From Halomonas sp. (GTDB lineage Bacteria > Pseudomonadota > Gammaproteobacteria > Pseudomonadales > Halomonadaceae), in contig NZ_JACUUD010000013.1 in NCBI RefSeq assembly GCF_014859505.1, forward strand, positions 1 through 46,108: a stretch of 46,108 nucleotides of DNA, written 5' to 3'. A program made the position numbers and the translations under genes. Shown here one piece after another: positions 29,409 through 39,331 of this stretch (its first letter is position 1; every line of letters begins with the position of its first letter). The notes below the pieces were generated by a model that was given only the letters and a program-made list of their open reading frames with translations, was not told where the DNA came from and did not search any database.

Positions 29409-29638
29409 GCAGCGCGGAATCCTTGCGGTGGTCGGAAGTCGGCGAGATGCCGGCGCCCGGTATATTGATCGGCGCCCGAGGCCCGATGGGATCATTCATT
29501 CTAGCGACTGGGGCCGGCCGCGGAAAGCAACCCGGGCCGCAGGTCCCGAGAAGCGGGCTCCGGCCTCTGCGCCGACCTCCGGCTGTGGTAGTCTCGGCCC
29601 GAATGACAGCCCAGCGCGCCTCGAACAGGGATGAGACC

Positions 29639-30601
29639 ATGAGCCGACAGCCTTCCGCACCGCCCACGGCGGGGATTTCCTATGAACAGGTCGCCGCCGC
29701 CGCCGAGAACCTCGAGGGGCGCGGGGCAGAGCCCACCCTGGCACGGGTCTGCGAGCACCTGGGCGCCGGCTCGCCCAACCGTATCCAGCGCCACCTGAGC
29801 GCCTGGCGCGCCGCGCGCCCTGCGTCGTCGCCCCCCGCTCCCCGGCTGCCGGAGGCCCTCATCGCCGCGCTGGAGGAGGAGCTCGAGCGACACGCCAGCG
29901 CCGCCCTGTCACGCGGGGAGCAGCTCGCCGATGAGGCCCGCAGCGACGCCGCCAGCCTGGCCGAGCTGGGCGAAGCGATGGAACAGCGCCTCGCCGAGCG
30001 AGAGACTCGACTGGCCGCCGCGGAGAGCGCTGCCGAGCAGGCCCTCGCGCGTCGCGATGAGCTGCAGGCGAGTCTCAACGAACTGCGCGAGAGCCTTGAG
30101 ATCGAACAGCGCGAGGCGCGCACCCATCGCGAGGCGCTGCTGCAGACCCGCCAGCAGGTGGATATGCTGCGCGAGCAGCTTGAGGAGGCCGTGCAGGCCC
30201 GGCTGGCCGCCGAGCGCCAGGCGCGGGACGCCGATGCCGAACGCATCAAGGCGGAGCGCAGCCAGGCCGTGGCCGAGGCCCAGCGCGACAGTGCCCTGGC
30301 TCAAGTACGCGAGAAGACCGAGCAGCATGCCGAACTGCACAAGGAGTTGCAGGCCGATCGCGCCCGTCAGCGTCAGGAGATCGCCGAGATGCGCAGCGAA
30401 CAGAAGCAGCGCGTGGATGCCATGGAACGAGCCCGCAACGAGGCCCAGAAGCAGGCCCAGGAGGCAGCTCAGCGGGCCTCCAAGGCCGAGATCCGCGCCG
30501 AGGCGTTGCAGGCCACCCAGGCCGCCCTCAAGTCACGCATGGACGCGATGCAGGTTCAGCAGCGCCAGCGCAGCCAGCGCCCCATCGGCGAACGCGATTA
30601 A
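29639..30601 (+). CDS. KfrA-like DNA-binding coiled-coil protein
   Basis: 320 residues from ATG 29639. The N-terminal 60 residues match the KfrA-type DNA-binding domain (ISYEQVAAAAENLEGRGAEPTLARVCEHLGAGSPNRIQRHLSAWR), a winged-helix-like region. The remaining 240 residues are an almost continuous coiled coil rich in Glu, Ala, Arg and Gln (SLAELGEAMEQRLAERETRL onwards). KfrA proteins were described on plasmids such as RK2, where they bind their own operator and help partition plasmid DNA; chromosomal relatives are less well known. No plasmid gene surrounds it here. It is divergent from dnaX across 230 bases, suggesting a chromosome-maintenance or repressor role, which is inference. Confidence 0.8.
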   Translation: MSRQPSAPPTAGISYEQVAAAAENLEGRGAEPTLARVCEHLGAGSPNRIQRHLSAWRAARPASSPPAPRLPEALIAALEEELERHASAALSRGEQLADEARSDAASLAELGEAMEQRLAERETRLAAAESAAEQALARRDELQASLNELRESLEIEQREARTHREALLQTRQQVDMLREQLEEAVQARLAAERQARDADAERIKAERSQAVAEAQRDSALAQVREKTEQHAELHKELQADRARQRQEIAEMRSEQKQRVDAMERARNEAQKQAQEAAQRASKAEIRAEALQATQAALKSRMDAMQVQQRQRSQRPIGERD

Positions 30602-31633: not shown

Positions 31634-32857
31634 ATGAATAAGGATCCGAACAAGGGCTACATTGCTCTGCTTGGCTGGAGCCTGAACGCCATCGAAGCTG
31701 CCGAAAACTTCGACCGACGCTACGTGGTGGTCGCCCCGGACTGGGCGGAAGAGTACTGCCAGAAGCACGACATTCCCTATGTGCCCTGGAACTTCGAACG
31801 CTTGAACGACCGCTCCCTGGAGATCGCCCACACCCTCCAGGAGATGAAGGTCGACGTCGCCATCCCGCTGTTCGAGGAGACCGTGGAGTGGGCCGGCGCC
31901 ATCAACTCGGTGCTGCTCGACAACCCGCGCCTCTACGGCCAGTCGCTGCTGCTGCGTGACAAGGCATTGATGAAGCGACGCGCCCAGCTGGGCGGCATCC
32001 GCGTGGGCATCTTCGAGGAGGCCCATGACAAGGAGGATGTCGTGCGCTTCCTCAAGCGGGTCAACCAGACCCTGCTCAAGCTCGACGGCGACCCCAACGA
32101 CCCGATCCACCTCAAGGCCTTCGACAAGGCCGGCTGCCTGGGCCACCGGGTGATCCGCACCCCGGACGAGGTCGATACCATTCCCGACGAGGAGTTCCCG
32201 GTGCTGATGGAGTCGCACCTGGACGGCTGGGAGTTCGCCGTGGAGGCGTGGATCCACAACGGCAAGATCGCCTTCCTCAACATCTCCGAGTACGTGACTC
32301 TAGGCTACTCGGTATTCGTGCCCGCCTCCCCGGAACTTGAGCACTATCGCCCCCAGATCACCGCCCAGATCGAGAAGCTGATCAAGGCCTTCGACATCGA
32401 GTTCGGCCTGATTCACCCCGAGTACTTCGTCACCAGCGACGGCGAGATGTACTTCGGCGAAGTCGCCTACCGGCCGCCGGGCTTCAAGGTGTTCGAGCTG
32501 CTCGAGCGGGTCTACGGTTTCAACGCCTACCAGGCCTCCATGCTGGTGTTCGATCCCAGGACTACCCCGGAGGAGGTCGCCGCCTTCTTCCCGAAGGAGG
32601 TGGTGGACGCCGACGGCTATGCCGGCTGCTTCGGGGTCTATCCGCGCCGCCGCGTGGTCAGCAAGCTGGAGATTCCCGAGGAGGTCGAGGACGACCCCTA
32701 CTTCGAGTCCCACGAGCTGACGCCACCGATGGAAGAAACCGTGACCAAGCGCACCGCCTTCGGTACCCATTGGGGCCTGGTCTACTTCAAGGGCGATGAG
32801 GCGGCACGCATGAAGGAACTGCTCAAGCATATGGAAGAGCTTGATTTCTATGTCTGA
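31634..32857 (+). CDS. ATP-grasp ligase, substrate unknown
   Basis: 407 residues. N-terminal Rossmann-like preATP-grasp domain (IALLGWSLNAIEAAENFDRRYVVVAP), then an ATP-grasp fold. Likely nucleotide and metal residues: Lys161 in HLKAFDKAGCLGHRV (the lysine plus glycine-rich loop), Glu193 in VLMESHLDGWEFAVEAW, Glu263 in LIHPEYF, and Glu276 with Arg280 in YFGEVAYRPPG. Such enzymes form an acyl-phosphate and join a carboxylate to an amine or thiol, often making peptides or modified metabolites. No carrier, PurT or biotin-carboxylase partner domain is seen. A GGAGG site lies seven bases upstream of the ATG. First gene of an operon with the 678-residue protein (45-base gap) and TlyA. Specific product not recognised. 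Confidence 0.85.
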   Translation: MNKDPNKGYIALLGWSLNAIEAAENFDRRYVVVAPDWAEEYCQKHDIPYVPWNFERLNDRSLEIAHTLQEMKVDVAIPLFEETVEWAGAINSVLLDNPRLYGQSLLLRDKALMKRRAQLGGIRVGIFEEAHDKEDVVRFLKRVNQTLLKLDGDPNDPIHLKAFDKAGCLGHRVIRTPDEVDTIPDEEFPVLMESHLDGWEFAVEAWIHNGKIAFLNISEYVTLGYSVFVPASPELEHYRPQITAQIEKLIKAFDIEFGLIHPEYFVTSDGEMYFGEVAYRPPGFKVFELLERVYGFNAYQASMLVFDPRTTPEEVAAFFPKEVVDADGYAGCFGVYPRRRVVSKLEIPEEVEDDPYFESHELTPPMEETVTKRTAFGTHWGLVYFKGDEAARMKELLKHMEELDFYV

Positions 32858-32902
32858 TACAGGCGTCATGGAAAGGTGACAGCCTGACGACAAGGAGTCG
32901 GC

Positions 32903-34939
32903 GTGACCACGCACCGACAGACGCAAGACACGAATGCAACGCCTGCGGCCAACGATAAACTCGTTGGCCTCTGCCAGAAACTGGATGAGGCGATCAGCCT
33001 CCTGACTCACTCCCGAGAGTTTGCCAAGCCCGGCAAGCTGCCTCGGGTGTTCGACACCGCCCGCCGGGTGCTGCTTCAGGAGGGCGGTGCCGCCGCCATC
33101 GAGGCCCGCGCCCAGGCTTTCGAAAAGGCCGGGGTCTTCCTAGGCTCAGACTGGGAGACTCCCCAGTTTCTGGTGCCTTCTCTGACCACCCATGCGCTCA
33201 AGAGCCCCGACCCCAACATGGTGGTGATCGAGGCATTGAGCGAGTTGCGTCTATTGGCCGTGGCCAAGGGGGAGTACCTGCATGACCAGATCTCCGCCGA
33301 GCAGGCGCACCACTACCTGACCCAGGTGATGGCGATCAATCTGTGGCTGCTGTTCGGCGCACCCAGCGAGGCAGAGCGCGAGACCCAGGGCCGCCTGGCC
33401 CAGATTCCCCGCCACCTGTTCCAGCATCTGGCCCAGCGCATCGGCTACGAGCACATCATCGACCGTCTGATCGAAGAGATCTGGCGGATCCTGCAGCAGC
33501 GCCCCATCCAGGTGGAGCCGGTCAAGGCGATGATCACCCAGATCGCCATCTGCCAGGCCAATCCGGAGATCGACCTGGGCATCAGCGGCCAGGGCGCCGA
33601 CCGCCTGGTCAGCTCGCTCTACGGACCTACCCGGGCCTGCCGCGAGGATCCGGGGCACGAGATCTATCGTGAACGGCTCTCCAGCATGGATAGCGCCGCC
33701 CTCCAGGGAGAAGCCACCGGATTTGCCCGCGCCATGCACGACACCGGGCTGGTCTCGTCCTACCACCCGGTGCTGCTGCGTCACCTGCTGGATCACAGCG
33801 ATCACCTGGTGGCCGAGGCGCTCGGGCTCTCGGCCACCGGTCGCGACTGCCTGCTCTGCTACCGCGAGCTGGTCTCCGCGCTGATCCGCAGCGGCGTGCA
33901 CCCGACCACGCCCCAGGCCGTCTTCGGCCTGGCGCTGCTGCTGGAGCGCGGCATCCTCTACCAGCCGCCGGTCGCCCCGGCCATGTGGCGCCAGCTGAGC
34001 CTGACGCTCTCCGAATGGTCACAGGCGCGGCTCAACCTGGCCTTTGGTGAGACGGTCTCACCCAGGGCCCGGCTGCTGGAGGGGGTGTTGTGCATGCTCG
34101 GCCAGCCGCTGGGCGTCGGTCAGGGCAACAACCCCACCTGCCAGTCGGCCCGGGCGCTCTCCATGTGGGCCTACAACGACCCCGACTACATGCTGCAGAT
34201 GGTGGCCTGGGCAGCCCGCGACGACGAGATCATCATGCACTTCGAAGGCCAGCCGATCTCCTCGATGGAGAGCAGCGGCGGCGTGGCCCAGAGCCTGCCC
34301 CTGGACCTCGACCCAGTGTCGCTGATCGTGGTGCCCCACCTGGATCGCATCTATGCCGAGATGGGCCGACGATGCATCGGCCGAGAAGGCGACCCCCACC
34401 GCTGGGTCAACCCGGAATTCCATGGCTGGTGGTCGGGGCGAGGCTTTCGTATCAACGTCGACGTGGCCACGGGCCAACTCCATGAGCTGGACACCTTCCT
34501 GCGCCACTTCTATGCGAGCTACCACCCCTATTACAACGGTAACCAGCCGCTGATACACCCCCAACCGGCGGGCATTGCCGTGACCGACAGCGCCGCACGC
34601 TTCATCGGCTGGCACGCCATCACCGTGCTGCGCGTCTCGCTGGACCCCTCTGACGTGATGCGGGTCTATTTCTACAATCCCAACAACGACAGCGGTCAGG
34701 ACTGGGGTGACGATATCAAGGTCAGCACCGCCGACCACGGTGAGCGTGCGGGAGAGGCCTCGCTGCCCTTCGAGCAGTTCGCCTCACGACTCTACATCTT
34801 CCACTACGACCCGCTGGAGCGCGGCGAGCTGGCCCAGGTCACCCAGGCGGAGCTGGACCTTGTGATCGGTCACATCCACCGCAGCTGGGGGGCAGACAGA
34901 GTCCCGCCCACCGACCTGCAGGCCGACGAAGGACCCTAG
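32903..34939 (+). CDS. Uncharacterised protein with papain-like Cys-His-Asn motif
   Basis: 678 residues; family not recognised. GTG 32903 follows AAGGAG at good spacing. Residues 1-380 look helical and soluble, without signal peptide or membrane helix. In the C-terminal part, Gln407 and Cys413 lie in a GQGNNPTCQSARALSMW stretch, His571 in IGWHAITVLRV, and Asn592 in VYFYNPNND. The six-residue Gln-to-Cys step equals that of papain (Gln19, Cys25). The His-to-Asn distance of 21 (papain 16), with His on a predicted strand, also fits a papain-like or transglutaminase fold. The function is inferred only. The ATP-grasp gene precedes it and TlyA follows after six bases, so the three are probably one operon. 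A peptidase, amidase or transglutaminase paired with the ligase is the leading idea. Confidence 0.6.
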   Translation: MTTHRQTQDTNATPAANDKLVGLCQKLDEAISLLTHSREFAKPGKLPRVFDTARRVLLQEGGAAAIEARAQAFEKAGVFLGSDWETPQFLVPSLTTHALKSPDPNMVVIEALSELRLLAVAKGEYLHDQISAEQAHHYLTQVMAINLWLLFGAPSEAERETQGRLAQIPRHLFQHLAQRIGYEHIIDRLIEEIWRILQQRPIQVEPVKAMITQIAICQANPEIDLGISGQGADRLVSSLYGPTRACREDPGHEIYRERLSSMDSAALQGEATGFARAMHDTGLVSSYHPVLLRHLLDHSDHLVAEALGLSATGRDCLLCYRELVSALIRSGVHPTTPQAVFGLALLLERGILYQPPVAPAMWRQLSLTLSEWSQARLNLAFGETVSPRARLLEGVLCMLGQPLGVGQGNNPTCQSARALSMWAYNDPDYMLQMVAWAARDDEIIMHFEGQPISSMESSGGVAQSLPLDLDPVSLIVVPHLDRIYAEMGRRCIGREGDPHRWVNPEFHGWWSGRGFRINVDVATGQLHELDTFLRHFYASYHPYYNGNQPLIHPQPAGIAVTDSAARFIGWHAITVLRVSLDPSDVMRVYFYNPNNDSGQDWGDDIKVSTADHGERAGEASLPFEQFASRLYIFHYDPLERGELAQVTQAELDLVIGHIHRSWGADRVPPTDLQADEGP

Positions 34940-34945
34940 GGGAAG

Positions 34946-35722
34946 ATGCCGCGTCTCGACCAGCTTCTCGTCACCCTGGGCCTGGCCCGTTCACGCACCC
35001 GCGCCCAGCGGCTTATCCGCCACGGGCGGGTGAGCCTGGACGAGGGCGGCCGCGTGCTGACGAAGCCCGGCGAGAAGCTGCCGGCGGATACCCGGCTGGC
35101 GGTGCAGGAGGACCCCGAGGAGCGCTATGTATCGCGGGCGGGGCTCAAGCTGGAGGGACTGATCGAGGCGCTGGGACTCGACCTGACGGGCCGACTGGTC
35201 CTCGACGTGGGCCAGTCCACCGGCGGCTTCACCGACTGTGCCCTGGCCCATGGAGCCCGCCACGTGATCGGCGTGGAGGTGGGCCACGAGCAGCTCGACC
35301 CAGGCCTGCGCGAGGATTCCCGGGTCACCTGCCTGGAAGGGCTCAACGCCCGGGCCATGAGCGCCGACCCTCGCCTGCGGGCGGCCTTCGAGGCACAGGG
35401 CGCCGCGGGGCCGGACCTGGCAGTGATGGATGTCTCCTTCATCTCCCAGACCCTGATCCTGCCGGAGATCAGCGCCCTGCTGCGCGAGGGTGGCGAGCTC
35501 GCCAGCCTGGTTAAGCCGCAGTTCGAGGTCGGACCGGGCGGTGTCAACGCCCGCGGGCTGGTCACCGATCCCGCCCGCTACAAGGAGGTGGAAGCAAGGA
35601 TCCGCGCATGCTGCGCCGGGGTGGGCCTGGCGATCCGCCACTGGCAGCCAAGCCCGCTGCTGGGTGGCGACGGCAACCGCGAGTTTCTGCTCCACGCCGT
35701 GCGCGAGCCGTCGCCGGCCTGA
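34946..35722 (+). CDS. TlyA-family ribosomal RNA 2'-O-methyltransferase
   Basis: 258 residues. An S4 RNA-binding domain (RLDQLLVTLGLARSRTRAQRLIRHGRVSLD) precedes an FtsJ-like SAM methyltransferase. The catalytic K-D-K-E type residues are present: Lys68 in YVSRAGLKLE, Asp in AVMDVSFIS, Lys in SLVKPQFEVG and Glu in NREFLLHAV. The SAM loop is DVGQSTGGFTDCAL. Known TlyA enzymes methylate 16S and/or 23S rRNA cytidines; some were first called hemolysins. The start codon follows GGGGAAG just after the stop of the papain-like gene, consistent with one operon. Which rRNA site it modifies cannot be read here. Confidence 0.94.
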   Translation: MPRLDQLLVTLGLARSRTRAQRLIRHGRVSLDEGGRVLTKPGEKLPADTRLAVQEDPEERYVSRAGLKLEGLIEALGLDLTGRLVLDVGQSTGGFTDCALAHGARHVIGVEVGHEQLDPGLREDSRVTCLEGLNARAMSADPRLRAAFEAQGAAGPDLAVMDVSFISQTLILPEISALLREGGELASLVKPQFEVGPGGVNARGLVTDPARYKEVEARIRACCAGVGLAIRHWQPSPLLGGDGNREFLLHAVREPSPA

Positions 35723-35728
35723 CGGGAC

Positions 35729-38700
35729 TCAGCGTCCGCCGTCTCCCCCGCCACCGCCGTCTCCCCCGCCGTCAAGATCGACCTCCCCCGGGTCGCCGTG
35801 GGCGCCGGGAGGCGGGTGGGCCGGCGCAGGCTCGCCGGCGGAGAGCACCTGCTGGACCCGCTGTGACGCCCCGCCGGGGCGATGCAGCCAGACATCGAGC
35901 TGGTTGAAGGCGATATCGACCTCGTGCTCGGCGAACAGCTCACCCACCCGGCAGTTGACCTCGTCGGTGGCATAGAGTCGATCACCCAGAGCGTTGACGA
36001 AGATGCGCAGCTCGAAGTTCAAGGTGCTCTCGCCATAATCCATGAAGAACACCTGAGGCTCGGGGTCGGCCAGCACCCGAGTGTTCTCGTCGGCAGCCTG
36101 TCGCAGCAGGCGATGCACCAGGCGATGGTCCGAGCCGTAGGCGACCCCGAAGGTCAGCACCACTCGCGTGACCGTGTCCGACAATGACCAGTTGATCAGC
36201 TGGTCGGTGATGAAGGTCTGGTTGGGGATGATGATTTCCTTGCGATCGAAGTCGGTCACCGTGGTGGCGCGGATGCGGATCTTGCTCACCGTGCCGGTGA
36301 GGTTGCCCAGCGTCACGGTGTCACCGATACGTACCGGCCGCTCGAAGAGGATGATCAGCCCCGAGACGAAGTTGGCGAAGATCGCCTGCAGGCCGAAGCC
36401 CAGGCCCACGCCAAGCGCGGCCACCAGCCACTGCAACTTGTCCCAGGAGACGCCGAGGGTGCCCAGCGAGGCGACCAGGCCGGTACCGATGATGGTATAG
36501 GAGAGCAGCGAGGTGATGGCGTAGGCACTGCCCTGCTTCAACTCCAGGCGCGACAGCACCATCACCTCGAGCAGGCCGGGCAGGTTGCGCGCCATCATCA
36601 GGGTCAGCCCGAGGATCAGCAGCGCGGTGAAGATATCGGCCACCGACAGGGTACCACCGACCAGGTCGGCGCCCTCGGCCTCGTCGGTCTCCCAGATCGC
36701 CACCTGCTCCAGGTAGCCCAGCACCGTCAGCAGGTCGGCCCAGACCAGGTAGAGCAGGAACACGAAGCCGATCAGCAGGATCAGCTTGGAGAGGCGCAAT
36801 GACTGCTGATTGATCTGCTCCATGTCCAGGGGTGGCTCCTCCACCACCTCCAGCCCCCCGTCGGCTCCCTCCTGGGCATGGGCCCGCCGCCGGGCCAGGG
36901 CACGCTTGAAGGCCAGGCGACGTGCCGCCACCGCCAGGCCTCGCACGACCGCGGCCTCGACCAGAATCCACAGTCCCAGCAGATAGAGGGTGATGGCGAA
37001 GCGTCCCACCAGGCTCAACGCCGTGTACTCGTAGCCCGCCGCGATCAGTCCGAGCAGCGCTAGCGGCACCGCGGCCATGCTGAGCCCCAGCACCAGCCGG
37101 AACAGCCGCACGCCGAAGAAGGGTGCATGGGCCAGGATCAGCCGCGCCAGCACCAAGCTCATGGCCAGCAGGCCCGAGACCAGCAGCCCCAGGGCGACCG
37201 GGCGGTGGTTGAGGCCAAAGTCGGTGTCCCGCGCCAGGGTGGCGATCATCAGCACCGGCACCAGCGAGACACCCAGCCAGCCGAGCAGCCGGCGCAGCCT
37301 TGCGGCATAGTCCGCCGGCCAGTAGAAGTGCTTGGTGGCCACGCCATCGGGCACCAGCAACCGGCGACCCCAGGCGACCACCAACCAGGCCAGCGAGAGC
37401 TGCTGGGCGGCCAGGCCCAGGCCGTGGGCGATGCCCTCGCCGCCTGCCAGCAGGGCGCTGCCGACGGCTGCCAGAGCCAGGGGCCCGGGAAGGGCCAGCA
37501 GGGCATTGAGCAACACCGCCCGAGGCGTATGCAACTGGGTATCGCTGCGGAGCCGACCGATCTGCTCATGCAGAACCGCCAGACGGGCCTTCAGGCGCCG
37601 GCGCACCCACAGCATCACGACAGCGGCCAGCAGCAGGGGGACCCCGACCAGGGCACCGGCCGTGGGCAGGCGCCAGTGAACCGGCAGCACCTCCCGCCAC
37701 TCGCCCTCCTGCCACTCCAGCACGAGGTTGGCGGGCAGCTGGCGCACCCAGGCCAGGTCCAGGGGCCGGGTATTGGCGACCCAGAAGAGCTGCTCGTCGA
37801 TGGTCGCGCTCAGCTCTCGCGAGGTCTCGAGCAGCTGCTGCTGGTTGAGCTGCAGCTCGATGGCCGAGCTCAGCAAGCTGCCGTAGGTCTGCTCCAGGCG
37901 GTCCACCAGCTCGCGCCGTGACTGGTAGAGGCGCTGCAGGGAATCGACCAGGGCATCGCTGACCTCGACGCCGGCCTCTTCCAGCCGCTGGTTAGCCAGG
38001 CGCTCACCCTGGCGCAGCTGATCGCGCTGGCGCACCAGATCGAACTGGCGCAGTCGCAGATCGGCGATCTCGTCCTGGAGATCGCGGCGCGGCGCCACCT
38101 GGGGCAGGGAGCGGCGCTGCTCGCGCAGAATCCGAGACAGCAGCATGCTGCCACGGATCGCGTCGATCTGCTCGTTGAGGCTGCGCTGCAGCTGGCGGAC
38201 ATTGTCGAGCTGGCTGCGCGTCGTGAGGCTCTCGCGCACCAGCGCATTGGTGCGGTCGTTGGCGCGCAGCAGTTCCAGGCTGAGGTCGCGGTTGATCTCC
38301 TGGGCGCGCTCCAGCACCGGATGACCCGCCTCGAGCAGCGGATCGTTCCGGGCGGCATCGGCAATGGCCTGCTCCGAGGCCAGGCGCCGCTTGCGCTCGA
38401 TGACGTTCTGCAGCAGGGAGAGTTCCGACTCCTGGCGGGTGATCTGCTGGATCATCAAGTCGCGGCGCTGCTGGTCGAGCTCGCGCAGGCGATTATTGGT
38501 GCTCAGCTCACGCTGATGAAACAGCAGGGTCAGCTCGGCCAGGCGGCGCTCCACCTGGTGCTGCCAGACCCCGGGGGCATCGCTGGGCAGCTCACGGTTA
38601 TCGATCTCATCCTGGGCACGACGCACCCGCTCCACCGCCTGCATGGCCTCGGAGATGGACTGCTGGGCGCGTTCGGGCAGGGTCTGGGCGTTGAGCAACT

Positions 38701-39178
38701 GAGCGTTGACCTCGGCCAGGCGATCCTGCAGCCGCTGCAGCTCGATCACCGCCTCCTGCTGGCGCTGCTCCAGTTCGTCGAGAGGCAGGTCGTCAAGGTC
38801 GGTGGCCGACATGCCCAGGGCCGCCTCCTCCTCGGTCAGCAACTCCCGCTCAAGGCGCAGCAGCTCGGCGGGCGCTCGCTCCACCCGCGCCTCCAGAACC
38901 TCCAGGCGCTCCTCGACCCTGGCCATTTCATCCAGGCCCGTCAGCGTGCCTTCCAGGGCCTCGATCTCACGACGCTGTGTCGCACCGGGGCTTTCGCCCT
39001 CCTCGGGAGCCAGGGCGGCGAGCCGCGCCTCCACGTCGTCGCGCTTCGGCAGTTCCACCTCTGCCCGGGCCGGCTGCAGCGCCGTCAGCAGCAGCAGGGC
39101 CAGGAGCGCCAGTGCAAGCCATCCCCGGCGACTCGCTGCGCCTCCCTTCGCGGCGCTTGCGCCCACACCTTTATCCAC
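35729..39178 (-). CDS. Large mechanosensitive channel of the MscK/MscM type
   Basis: About 1149 residues. Signal peptide (GWLALALLALLLLTALQPARA), then a long periplasmic coiled-coil domain of about 480 residues (MscS-porin type, ELPKRDDVEARLAAL onwards). About eight membrane helices follow, then the MscS core with the pore helix (LVAALGVGLGFGLQAIFANFVSGLIILFERPVRIGDTVTLG) and its beta domain (GTVSKIRIRATTVTDFDRKEIIIPNQTFI). Domain order equals Escherichia coli MscK (1120) and YjeP. It releases solutes on hypo-osmotic shock. The frame is open up to TTG 39244; GTG 39178 was chosen because GAGG lies six bases upstream. The C-terminus ends in a Gly/Asp-rich tail made by a short tandem repeat. It converges with tlyA six bases away. 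Confidence 0.93.
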   Translation of the reverse strand: MDKGVGASAAKGGAASRRGWLALALLALLLLTALQPARAEVELPKRDDVEARLAALAPEEGESPGATQRREIEALEGTLTGLDEMARVEERLEVLEARVERAPAELLRLERELLTEEEAALGMSATDLDDLPLDELEQRQQEAVIELQRLQDRLAEVNAQLLNAQTLPERAQQSISEAMQAVERVRRAQDEIDNRELPSDAPGVWQHQVERRLAELTLLFHQRELSTNNRLRELDQQRRDLMIQQITRQESELSLLQNVIERKRRLASEQAIADAARNDPLLEAGHPVLERAQEINRDLSLELLRANDRTNALVRESLTTRSQLDNVRQLQRSLNEQIDAIRGSMLLSRILREQRRSLPQVAPRRDLQDEIADLRLRQFDLVRQRDQLRQGERLANQRLEEAGVEVSDALVDSLQRLYQSRRELVDRLEQTYGSLLSSAIELQLNQQQLLETSRELSATIDEQLFWVANTRPLDLAWVRQLPANLVLEWQEGEWREVLPVHWRLPTAGALVGVPLLLAAVVMLWVRRRLKARLAVLHEQIGRLRSDTQLHTPRAVLLNALLALPGPLALAAVGSALLAGGEGIAHGLGLAAQQLSLAWLVVAWGRRLLVPDGVATKHFYWPADYAARLRRLLGWLGVSLVPVLMIATLARDTDFGLNHRPVALGLLVSGLLAMSLVLARLILAHAPFFGVRLFRLVLGLSMAAVPLALLGLIAAGYEYTALSLVGRFAITLYLLGLWILVEAAVVRGLAVAARRLAFKRALARRRAHAQEGADGGLEVVEEPPLDMEQINQQSLRLSKLILLIGFVFLLYLVWADLLTVLGYLEQVAIWETDEAEGADLVGGTLSVADIFTALLILGLTLMMARNLPGLLEVMVLSRLELKQGSAYAITSLLSYTIIGTGLVASLGTLGVSWDKLQWLVAALGVGLGFGLQAIFANFVSGLIILFERPVRIGDTVTLGNLTGTVSKIRIRATTVTDFDRKEIIIPNQTFITDQLINWSLSDTVTRVVLTFGVAYGSDHRLVHRLLRQAADENTRVLADPEPQVFFMDYGESTLNFELRIFVNALGDRLYATDEVNCRVGELFAEHEVDIAFNQLDVWLHRPGGASQRVQQVLSAGEPAPAHPPPGAHGDPGEVDLDGGGDGGGGGDGGR
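35736..35771. repeat. 18-bp tandem duplication in the 3' end of the mechanosensitive channel gene
   Basis: Two adjacent copies of an 18-base unit beginning CCGCCGTCTCCC match at 17 of 18 positions. On the coding strand they encode the terminal GGDGGGGGDGG-type tail. The in-frame repeat has probably grown by slippage and may vary in number between strains. Confidence 0.6.
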
Positions 39179-39331
39179 AGCCCACCTCGCTTGCCGAAGG
39201 GATCCATCAGTGACGATTCTCTTACCCTGCTGCAGGCATGGCAATCACCTCCGGCAGGGTACCACGTGTTGACTTGACCGCCGGGCGTGGTAGAAGGACG
39301 GTCTGAATCTCGTTCTCTTCCGGATCTCCCC

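Follow-up and report, generated by a model that had tools for sequence, protein, structure and literature searches.

A 46,108-nucleotide contig of Halomonas sp. (NZ_JACUUD010000013.1, RefSeq assembly GCF_014859505.1; the whole stretch is hereafter called the window) carries two neighboring genes whose products we refer to as AG, a protein resembling ATP-grasp carboxylate-amine ligases, and TG, a papain-like candidate. Throughout the samples examined, no genome was found to break the pairing of TG with AG; moreover, TG-positive genomes also encode ectoine synthase (EctC), whose gene adjoins the pair in three lineages. It is this genomic context that leads us to osmoadaptation rather than to the making and removal of tags. 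We favor, with a probability of about 0.42, the view that AG and TG together serve osmoadaptation in salt-adapted proteobacteria that produce ectoine, as a module not described before: the ligase would make an amide, and the papain-like protein would cleave or transfer it.

The two genes are intact, lie on the plus strand and are separated by 45 bp. Their features in the window are as follows (fractions refer to the alignments described below).

31634..32857, plus strand: AG, ATP-grasp carboxylate-amine ligase-like protein, 407 residues, ATG start, open frame intact
32903..34939, plus strand: TG, papain-like candidate, 678 residues, GTG start, with a helical N-terminal region and a C-terminal catalytic domain
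32945..34051, plus strand: TG helical region, residues about 15-383 (helical model, weak armadillo/HEAT-type fold matches)
34052..34936, plus strand: putative papain-like catalytic region of TG, residues 384-678 (from conservation, residue placement in models and Foldseek)
34121..34123, plus strand: codon CAG of Gln407, putative oxyanion-hole residue, 117/117
34139..34141, plus strand: codon TGC of Cys413, putative nucleophile, 117/117
34613..34615, plus strand: codon CAC of His571, putative general base, 117/117
34676..34678, plus strand: codon AAT of Asn592, putative third triad residue, 117/117

Co-occurrence of AG, TG and ectoine synthase

The distribution of the two genes was followed in 58 relatives, in 321 class-wide genomes (the window's genome being part of both sets) and in a 398-genome sample of the phylum. 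The first-pass annotation had supposed that the two genes work as a couple, and the survey agrees with this: the 39 relatives (of 58) and the 10 class genomes (of 321) that carry TG are the very ones that carry AG. In these 10 class genomes AG scored 847.8 bits or more; four other class genomes (G171, G126, G355 and G158) gave weak AG matches only, at 52-84.5 bits. In the phylum sample, where AG was looked for in TG-positive genomes, TG occurred in 11 of the 398; three of these were already present in the other samples, and the remaining eight all have AG on the loci that we fetched (8/8).

At 70 of 80 named loci, TG is immediately preceded by an intact AG gene of the same strand. Among the other ten, L057 is accompanied by a further TG-AG pair, and the remaining nine come from genomes that encode an AG of a diverged subtype elsewhere (9/9); in five of these nine, no TG is found within 1.5 kb on either side of the diverged AG. 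Similarly, 5 of 19 fetched regions with TG contain no AG, though the respective genomes do. The presence of AG in the genome even when it is away from TG implies that the two parts probably work in trans. It seems, then, that AG and TG depend on being in the same cell but do not have to share an operon.

The window's own genome harbors a second, diverged pair (G000:C150, locus L002, 1-3381), in which the order is reversed, TG coming first; the identities are 54% for TG and 77% for AG. In three genomes (G055, G011 and G020) TG copies outnumber AG copies. G055 (contigs C10, C11 and C12) shows five near-full-length TG places, one of them with a stop codon, plus a fragment, together with two AG genes. 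Decayed AG fragments were also seen directly upstream of TG (L101 5658-5971; L182-L184) in two Halomonas-type genomes, each of which retains a further AG elsewhere.

EctC genes, called by PF06339 over its cut-off, were found in 10/10 TG-positive versus 34/311 TG-negative genomes of the class sample (Fisher 9e-10) and in 39/39 versus 7/19 of the relatives (Fisher 6e-8), both probabilities being uncorrected for kinship. EctC was also present in 17 of 17 further TG-positive genomes, namely those eight of the phylum sample plus nine named genomes that may repeat species already counted. By their assigned labels, TG-positive genomes span 13 families. EctA was detected in all 28 TG-positive genomes tested, out of 65, implying that TG-positive genomes probably belong to ectoine producers.

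In three lineages EctC is physically linked to the pair. G038 has AG and TG genes that share 8 bp, with EctC beginning 1 bp past TG and running to the end of the contig. G316 has a same-strand series of TG, a histone-deacetylase-family gene, AG and EctC, in that order. In G760, EctC and AG are convergent, 109 bp apart, and a second EctC sits with EctB and EctA. NCBIfam names the linked gene product ectoine synthase in each of the three genomes. A single EctC was found in both G038 and G316, with EctA on another contig; both assemblies are fragmented, and that of G038 is only 75% complete. On the assumption of uniform gene placement and independent genomes, a rough estimate gives 0.13 expected EctC adjacencies in 65 genomes, and the probability of at least three is about 0.0003. 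As a separate observation, the only EctC found in G055 (L235 7688-8086) is solitary, lying about 60 kb from EctA and adjoining neither AG nor TG.

If AG and TG do serve osmoadaptation, AG would activate a carboxylate with ATP, as an acyl-phosphate, and join it to an amine, and the papain-like domain of TG, through Gln407, Cys413, His571 and Asn592, would cleave or transfer the resulting amide; the helical repeat region of TG would probably bind a partner or the substrate. Candidates for the product are small amides, for example a solute resembling a peptide, or a diamino acid or ectoine intermediate in conjugated form; it would be made as salt rises and broken down as salt falls. We also entertain, tentatively and as a somewhat unlikely elaboration, a more specific version, in which AG, TG and EctC, joined in some species by the histone-deacetylase-family amidohydrolase, would form an unrecognized branch of osmolyte metabolism. 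Here AG would amidate a diamino acid, ectoine or a precursor, TG would cleave or rearrange the product, and EctC would act on the same pool.

Several observations weigh against a role in osmoadaptation. Of the 65 TG-positive genomes with a placed EctC, only 3 have it next to AG or TG; the EctC loci examined mostly group this gene with EctB and EctA, away from the pair. EctC also occurs without the pair, in 34 genomes of the class sample and in G001, a member of the same genus that has ectABC. A control marker of salty or alkaline habitats, the Na+/H+ antiporter subunit MnhE, is enriched as well (9/10 TG-positive versus 119/311 TG-negative class genomes), which indicates that part of the EctC signal reflects adaptation to a salty habitat. 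The proteomes of TG-positive and TG-negative genomes did not differ significantly in acidity (p 0.13; 17 versus 18 stretches, with 20 intended per set, of which two negatives and one positive turned out to be nonexistent and two short positives were dropped). Genes without an osmotic connotation flank the pair, namely TlyA in the window and, elsewhere, an ammonium transporter, an aldehyde dehydrogenase, a desaturase and a cupin. Finally, the sole TG seen in G002 and G032 is in two pieces, and the second TG copy of G003, G005 and G028 is broken; such fragmentary or frame-broken copies imply that not every copy is under selection.

The enrichment of MnhE, the acidity comparison and the majority of pairs that do not adjoin EctC would also suit a general metabolic module, which has no link with salt as such and is simply common in marine or halophilic proteobacteria that make ectoine. 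We consider this rather unlikely, since the enrichment of EctC is stronger than that of MnhE and since EctC runs on directly from the pair in G038 and shares its strand in G316.

The two proteins and their predicted structures

AG matches the Pfam family ATP-grasp_4 (PF13535) with an E value of 1.4e-5 and 25.2 bits, just below the curated cut-off of 27. The PDB entries retrieved with an AG profile at E values of 0.0004-0.001 include 4dim and two L-amino acid ligases, 4wd3 and 3vot. RimK was absent among the AG matches, both in Pfam and NCBIfam scans to an E value of 1 and in the PDB profile search.

Six AG residues (Lys110, Lys161, Glu193, Glu200, Glu276 and Arg280) show no variation in any of the 113 distinct sequences that span more than 360 residues. 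Glu193, Glu200, Glu276 and Arg280 align with the PDB chains, and Lys161 aligns with 4dim; we take the invariant residues to be the ATP-binding Lys, the hinge Glu, the Mg-binding Glu and the substrate Arg. The initial description of AG as an ATP-grasp partner with its key residues in place is thus upheld, and the protein looks active as judged from its sequence. ATP-grasp enzymes form amides via an acyl-phosphate.

TG gave nothing over the curated cut-offs of Pfam, the best match being DUF4274 at an E value of 0.17. A Pfam scan of 20 aligned TG members yielded chance-level matches only, to six families, at E values of 0.016-0.23 and in one to three members each. Searches of NCBIfam, PHROGs and PADLOC produced no match up to an E value of 1; neither did a single-sequence search of the PDB, and a profile search of the latter gave E values of 0.2 or worse. 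The first-pass annotation had assigned TG to no family, and these databases likewise offer no significant match.

The four residues singled out by the first-pass annotation are found at the claimed positions, and the codons agree. Their invariance, which had been proposed as a check, holds without exception in 117 distinct sequences of nearly full length, the most distant having about 40% identity. This set comprises sequences with a query span of more than 600 residues, including the window copy; most are from Halomonadaceae, and fragments and frame-broken copies were dropped. The same residues are invariant in 20 of 20 rows of a smaller alignment, where the window copy appears two times (once in its own right, once as the genome locus) alongside 18 others down to 41% identity, and in which the invariance reaches 41-43% identity. 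Across the 117 sequences, 62 of 281 positions are invariant between residues 384 and 664, as compared to 21 of 364 between residues 20 and 383.

TG lacks any stretch of sufficient hydrophobicity for a membrane helix (the highest mean over 19 residues is 1.17), and the AG/TG system is probably cytoplasmic.

The model of full-length TG had a mean predicted local distance difference test score (pLDDT) of 64.5 and a predicted template modeling score (pTM) of 0.45; its N-terminal part is helical, with block pLDDT values of 76-96 for residues 21-180. The catalytic part modeled alone gave a mean pLDDT of 56.1 and a pTM of 0.58. Over the two models, block values in the catalytic part range from about 30 to 90 and are only about 30-40 around Cys413. 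Each prediction was given 55 homologues, close ones only, which probably accounts for the low confidence. Cys413 is placed at the start of a helix in the full model and two residues ahead of the helix in the model of the catalytic part; in both of these low-confidence models, His571 falls within a strand and Asn592 right behind the next strand. In the papain superfamily, the catalytic Cys lies at the N-terminus of the core helix and is assisted by a His and a polar third residue (PMC10318531).

A Foldseek search with the whole TG model returned mostly armadillo/HEAT-like matches, at E values of 0.016 or worse, and the N-terminal region is probably an ARM/HEAT-like repeat, as far as the model tells. 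With the catalytic part, no match reached an E value of 0.001, and the first 14 rows were calpains plus one staphopain, at E values of 0.015-0.12 (best calpain 1mdw, 0.015). The matches returned by VIA for the catalytic part were mostly papain-superfamily members by title, and they were weak (best Z 5.2, root-mean-square deviation 3.9 over 104 residues). The catalytic fold, as modeled, is probably papain-like. The earlier papain-like reading of TG gains from the invariant residues and from the prevalence of this superfamily among the weak fold matches, with the reservation that the models are of low confidence.

As for the type of reaction, transglutaminase-type papain-like families almost always lack the oxyanion-hole element (PMC10318531). 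The invariant Gln ahead of the Cys fits papain-type peptidases better than transglutaminase-type enzymes, although TG may still act by transfer. One could envisage, for example, that AG makes a short precursor and that TG joins such units in the manner of phytochelatin synthase, a member of the same superfamily. The superfamily does include transferases (PMC10318531), and one of the weak fold matches of TG is to a structure of phytochelatin synthase (6tho). Nonetheless, 6tho ranks at row 47 (Z 4.0, root-mean-square deviation 4.9 over 136 residues), where many peptidases score equally, and the Gln-Cys-His-Asn set is common to ordinary papain peptidases, so that we regard a transpeptidase of this kind as quite improbable.

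The architecture of TG also bears on another alternative, whereby AG would tag a protein with an amino acid or peptide, TG would remove the tag and the helical repeats would select the target. A protease preceded by helical repeats suits a protein substrate, the excess of TG over AG copies in G055, G011 and G020 would suit one tag with several erasers, and RimK and RimB, which act on the ribosomal protein RpsF, provide a known ligase-protease pair (PMC12239564). On the other hand, no third gene that might encode the target is found repeatedly next to the pair in different genera, the resemblance of AG is to L-amino acid ligases acting on small molecules, with RimK not among its matches, and the linkage to EctC points to metabolites. 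Overall, we deem such a protein modification system unlikely.

Neighboring genes

In the window, TlyA (34946-35722) starts 6 bp past TG, and the first-pass annotation had raised the possibility that the target of the system is the ribosome or translation. This suggestion is not supported: TlyA was found in none of 18 TG regions from other families and reflects the local gene order of Halomonadaceae. Among 78 named loci with downstream room (all from Halomonas and relatives, one being labeled Haliea), TlyA lies within 400 bp past TG in 51 and about 1.1-4.4 kb away in 20; none was seen in seven. With this synteny confined to Halomonas and relatives, we reject a TlyA-related or ribosomal target as a general explanation.

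Histone-deacetylase-family genes stand beside TG in 3 of 20 fetched regions (from G316, G237 and G553):

L159 2360-3562: histone-deacetylase-family gene beside TG, no NCBIfam name at an E value of 1e-5
L157 6605-7567: histone-deacetylase-family gene beside TG, no NCBIfam name at an E value of 1e-5
L165 6591-7706: histone-deacetylase-family gene beside TG, no NCBIfam name at an E value of 1e-5

Weaker matches to the same family (33-38%) occur in 10 Halomonas loci. Other neighbors were each seen at a single locus, namely an MscS-type channel and a BCCT transporter in G217, a Na+/H+ antiporter subunit in G344 and a cation efflux protein in G215; an osmotic theme among these neighbors would rest on selected loci. 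No third partner common to most fetched regions was found, with the proviso that gene calls misread some antisense frames of high GC content.

A phage or defense origin was considered and rejected, as TG had no phage match, was not confirmed in any viral contig and had no match in PADLOC. One plasmid record carries TG, a 1.8-Mb Halomonas replicon.

Elsewhere in the window, a 1171-residue MscS-family mechanosensitive channel is encoded on the minus strand at 35729-39244, just past TlyA, as the second gene downstream of TG. A protein with a KfrA_N domain, typical of a DNA-binding family of plasmid replication regions, is encoded at 29423-30601; its neighbor is presumably dnaX, judging by the sequence.

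Comparison with known systems

Among the closest parallels to AG and TG as a two-part ligase-peptidase couple is the RimK/RimB pair of Pseudomonas, an ATP-grasp glutamate ligase and a retropepsin-like aspartic peptidase (PMC12239564). The peptidase candidate TG, however, is of the papain-like cysteine type, not aspartic, and carries a helical repeat region, and AG is nearest to the ATP-grasp_4 L-amino acid ligases. Neither a RimK-type ligase signature nor an aspartic peptidase signature was seen in AG or TG by Pfam and NCBIfam scans to an E value of 1, and no ribosomal link was found for the pair.

The rlo operon of Pseudomonas aeruginosa (RloA, RloB and RloC) involves an ATP-grasp protein tied to tolerance of hypoosmotic stress, and it resembles our system in combining ATP-grasp, transglutaminase-type and peptidase components with an osmotic-stress link (PMC12239564). 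It differs in that RloB is an inactive transglutaminase domain mounted on seven transmembrane helices and RloA is a secreted aspartic peptidase (same source). By comparison with this description of the rlo proteins, TG has no membrane helix and retains all four active residues.

The pair also recalls the Anbu operon, for which an ATP-grasp gene is reported next to one for a transglutaminase-like protein; unlike ours, that operon has four genes in conserved order (ATP-grasp, alpha-E, transglutaminase-like protein and Anbu), including a proteasome-like protein (PMC6376114). No Anbu-like gene set appeared among the recurrent TG neighbors, which are only AG and the deacetylase-family gene, although no search was aimed at Anbu.

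Two further systems deserve mention. In glutathionylspermidine synthetase/amidase, an ATP-grasp synthetase and a papain-superfamily (CHAP) amidase are fused and make and break one amide, both domains belonging to other families. In the operon for the osmolyte N-acetylglutaminylglutamine amide (NAGGN), an ATP-grasp-type ligase makes a dipeptide osmolyte, with other partner genes.

A literature search of titles and abstract openings, with most subscription journals and the 2009 paper of Iyer et al. on ATP-grasp amidoligases outside its scope, returned no description of the AG/TG pair. The tie with EctC gives a concrete place to look for the substrate of the pair. Halomonas and other ectoine producers are used in industry. 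If the unrecognized osmolyte branch proves true, it would give a role to some of the ectoine synthases encoded away from ectAB; a 2018 review presents the role of solitary ectoine synthases as open (PMC5924519).

With the papain superfamily (calpain, staphopain, bleomycin hydrolase and papain itself), TG shares the Gln-Cys-His-Asn order, the placement of these residues in the low-confidence models and weak fold matches; it differs in matching none of the corresponding Pfam families and in having about 380 helical residues in front. Ligase-plus-peptidase couples are known, and what AG and TG add to them is a papain-like family that has no name yet and whose active residues are invariant.

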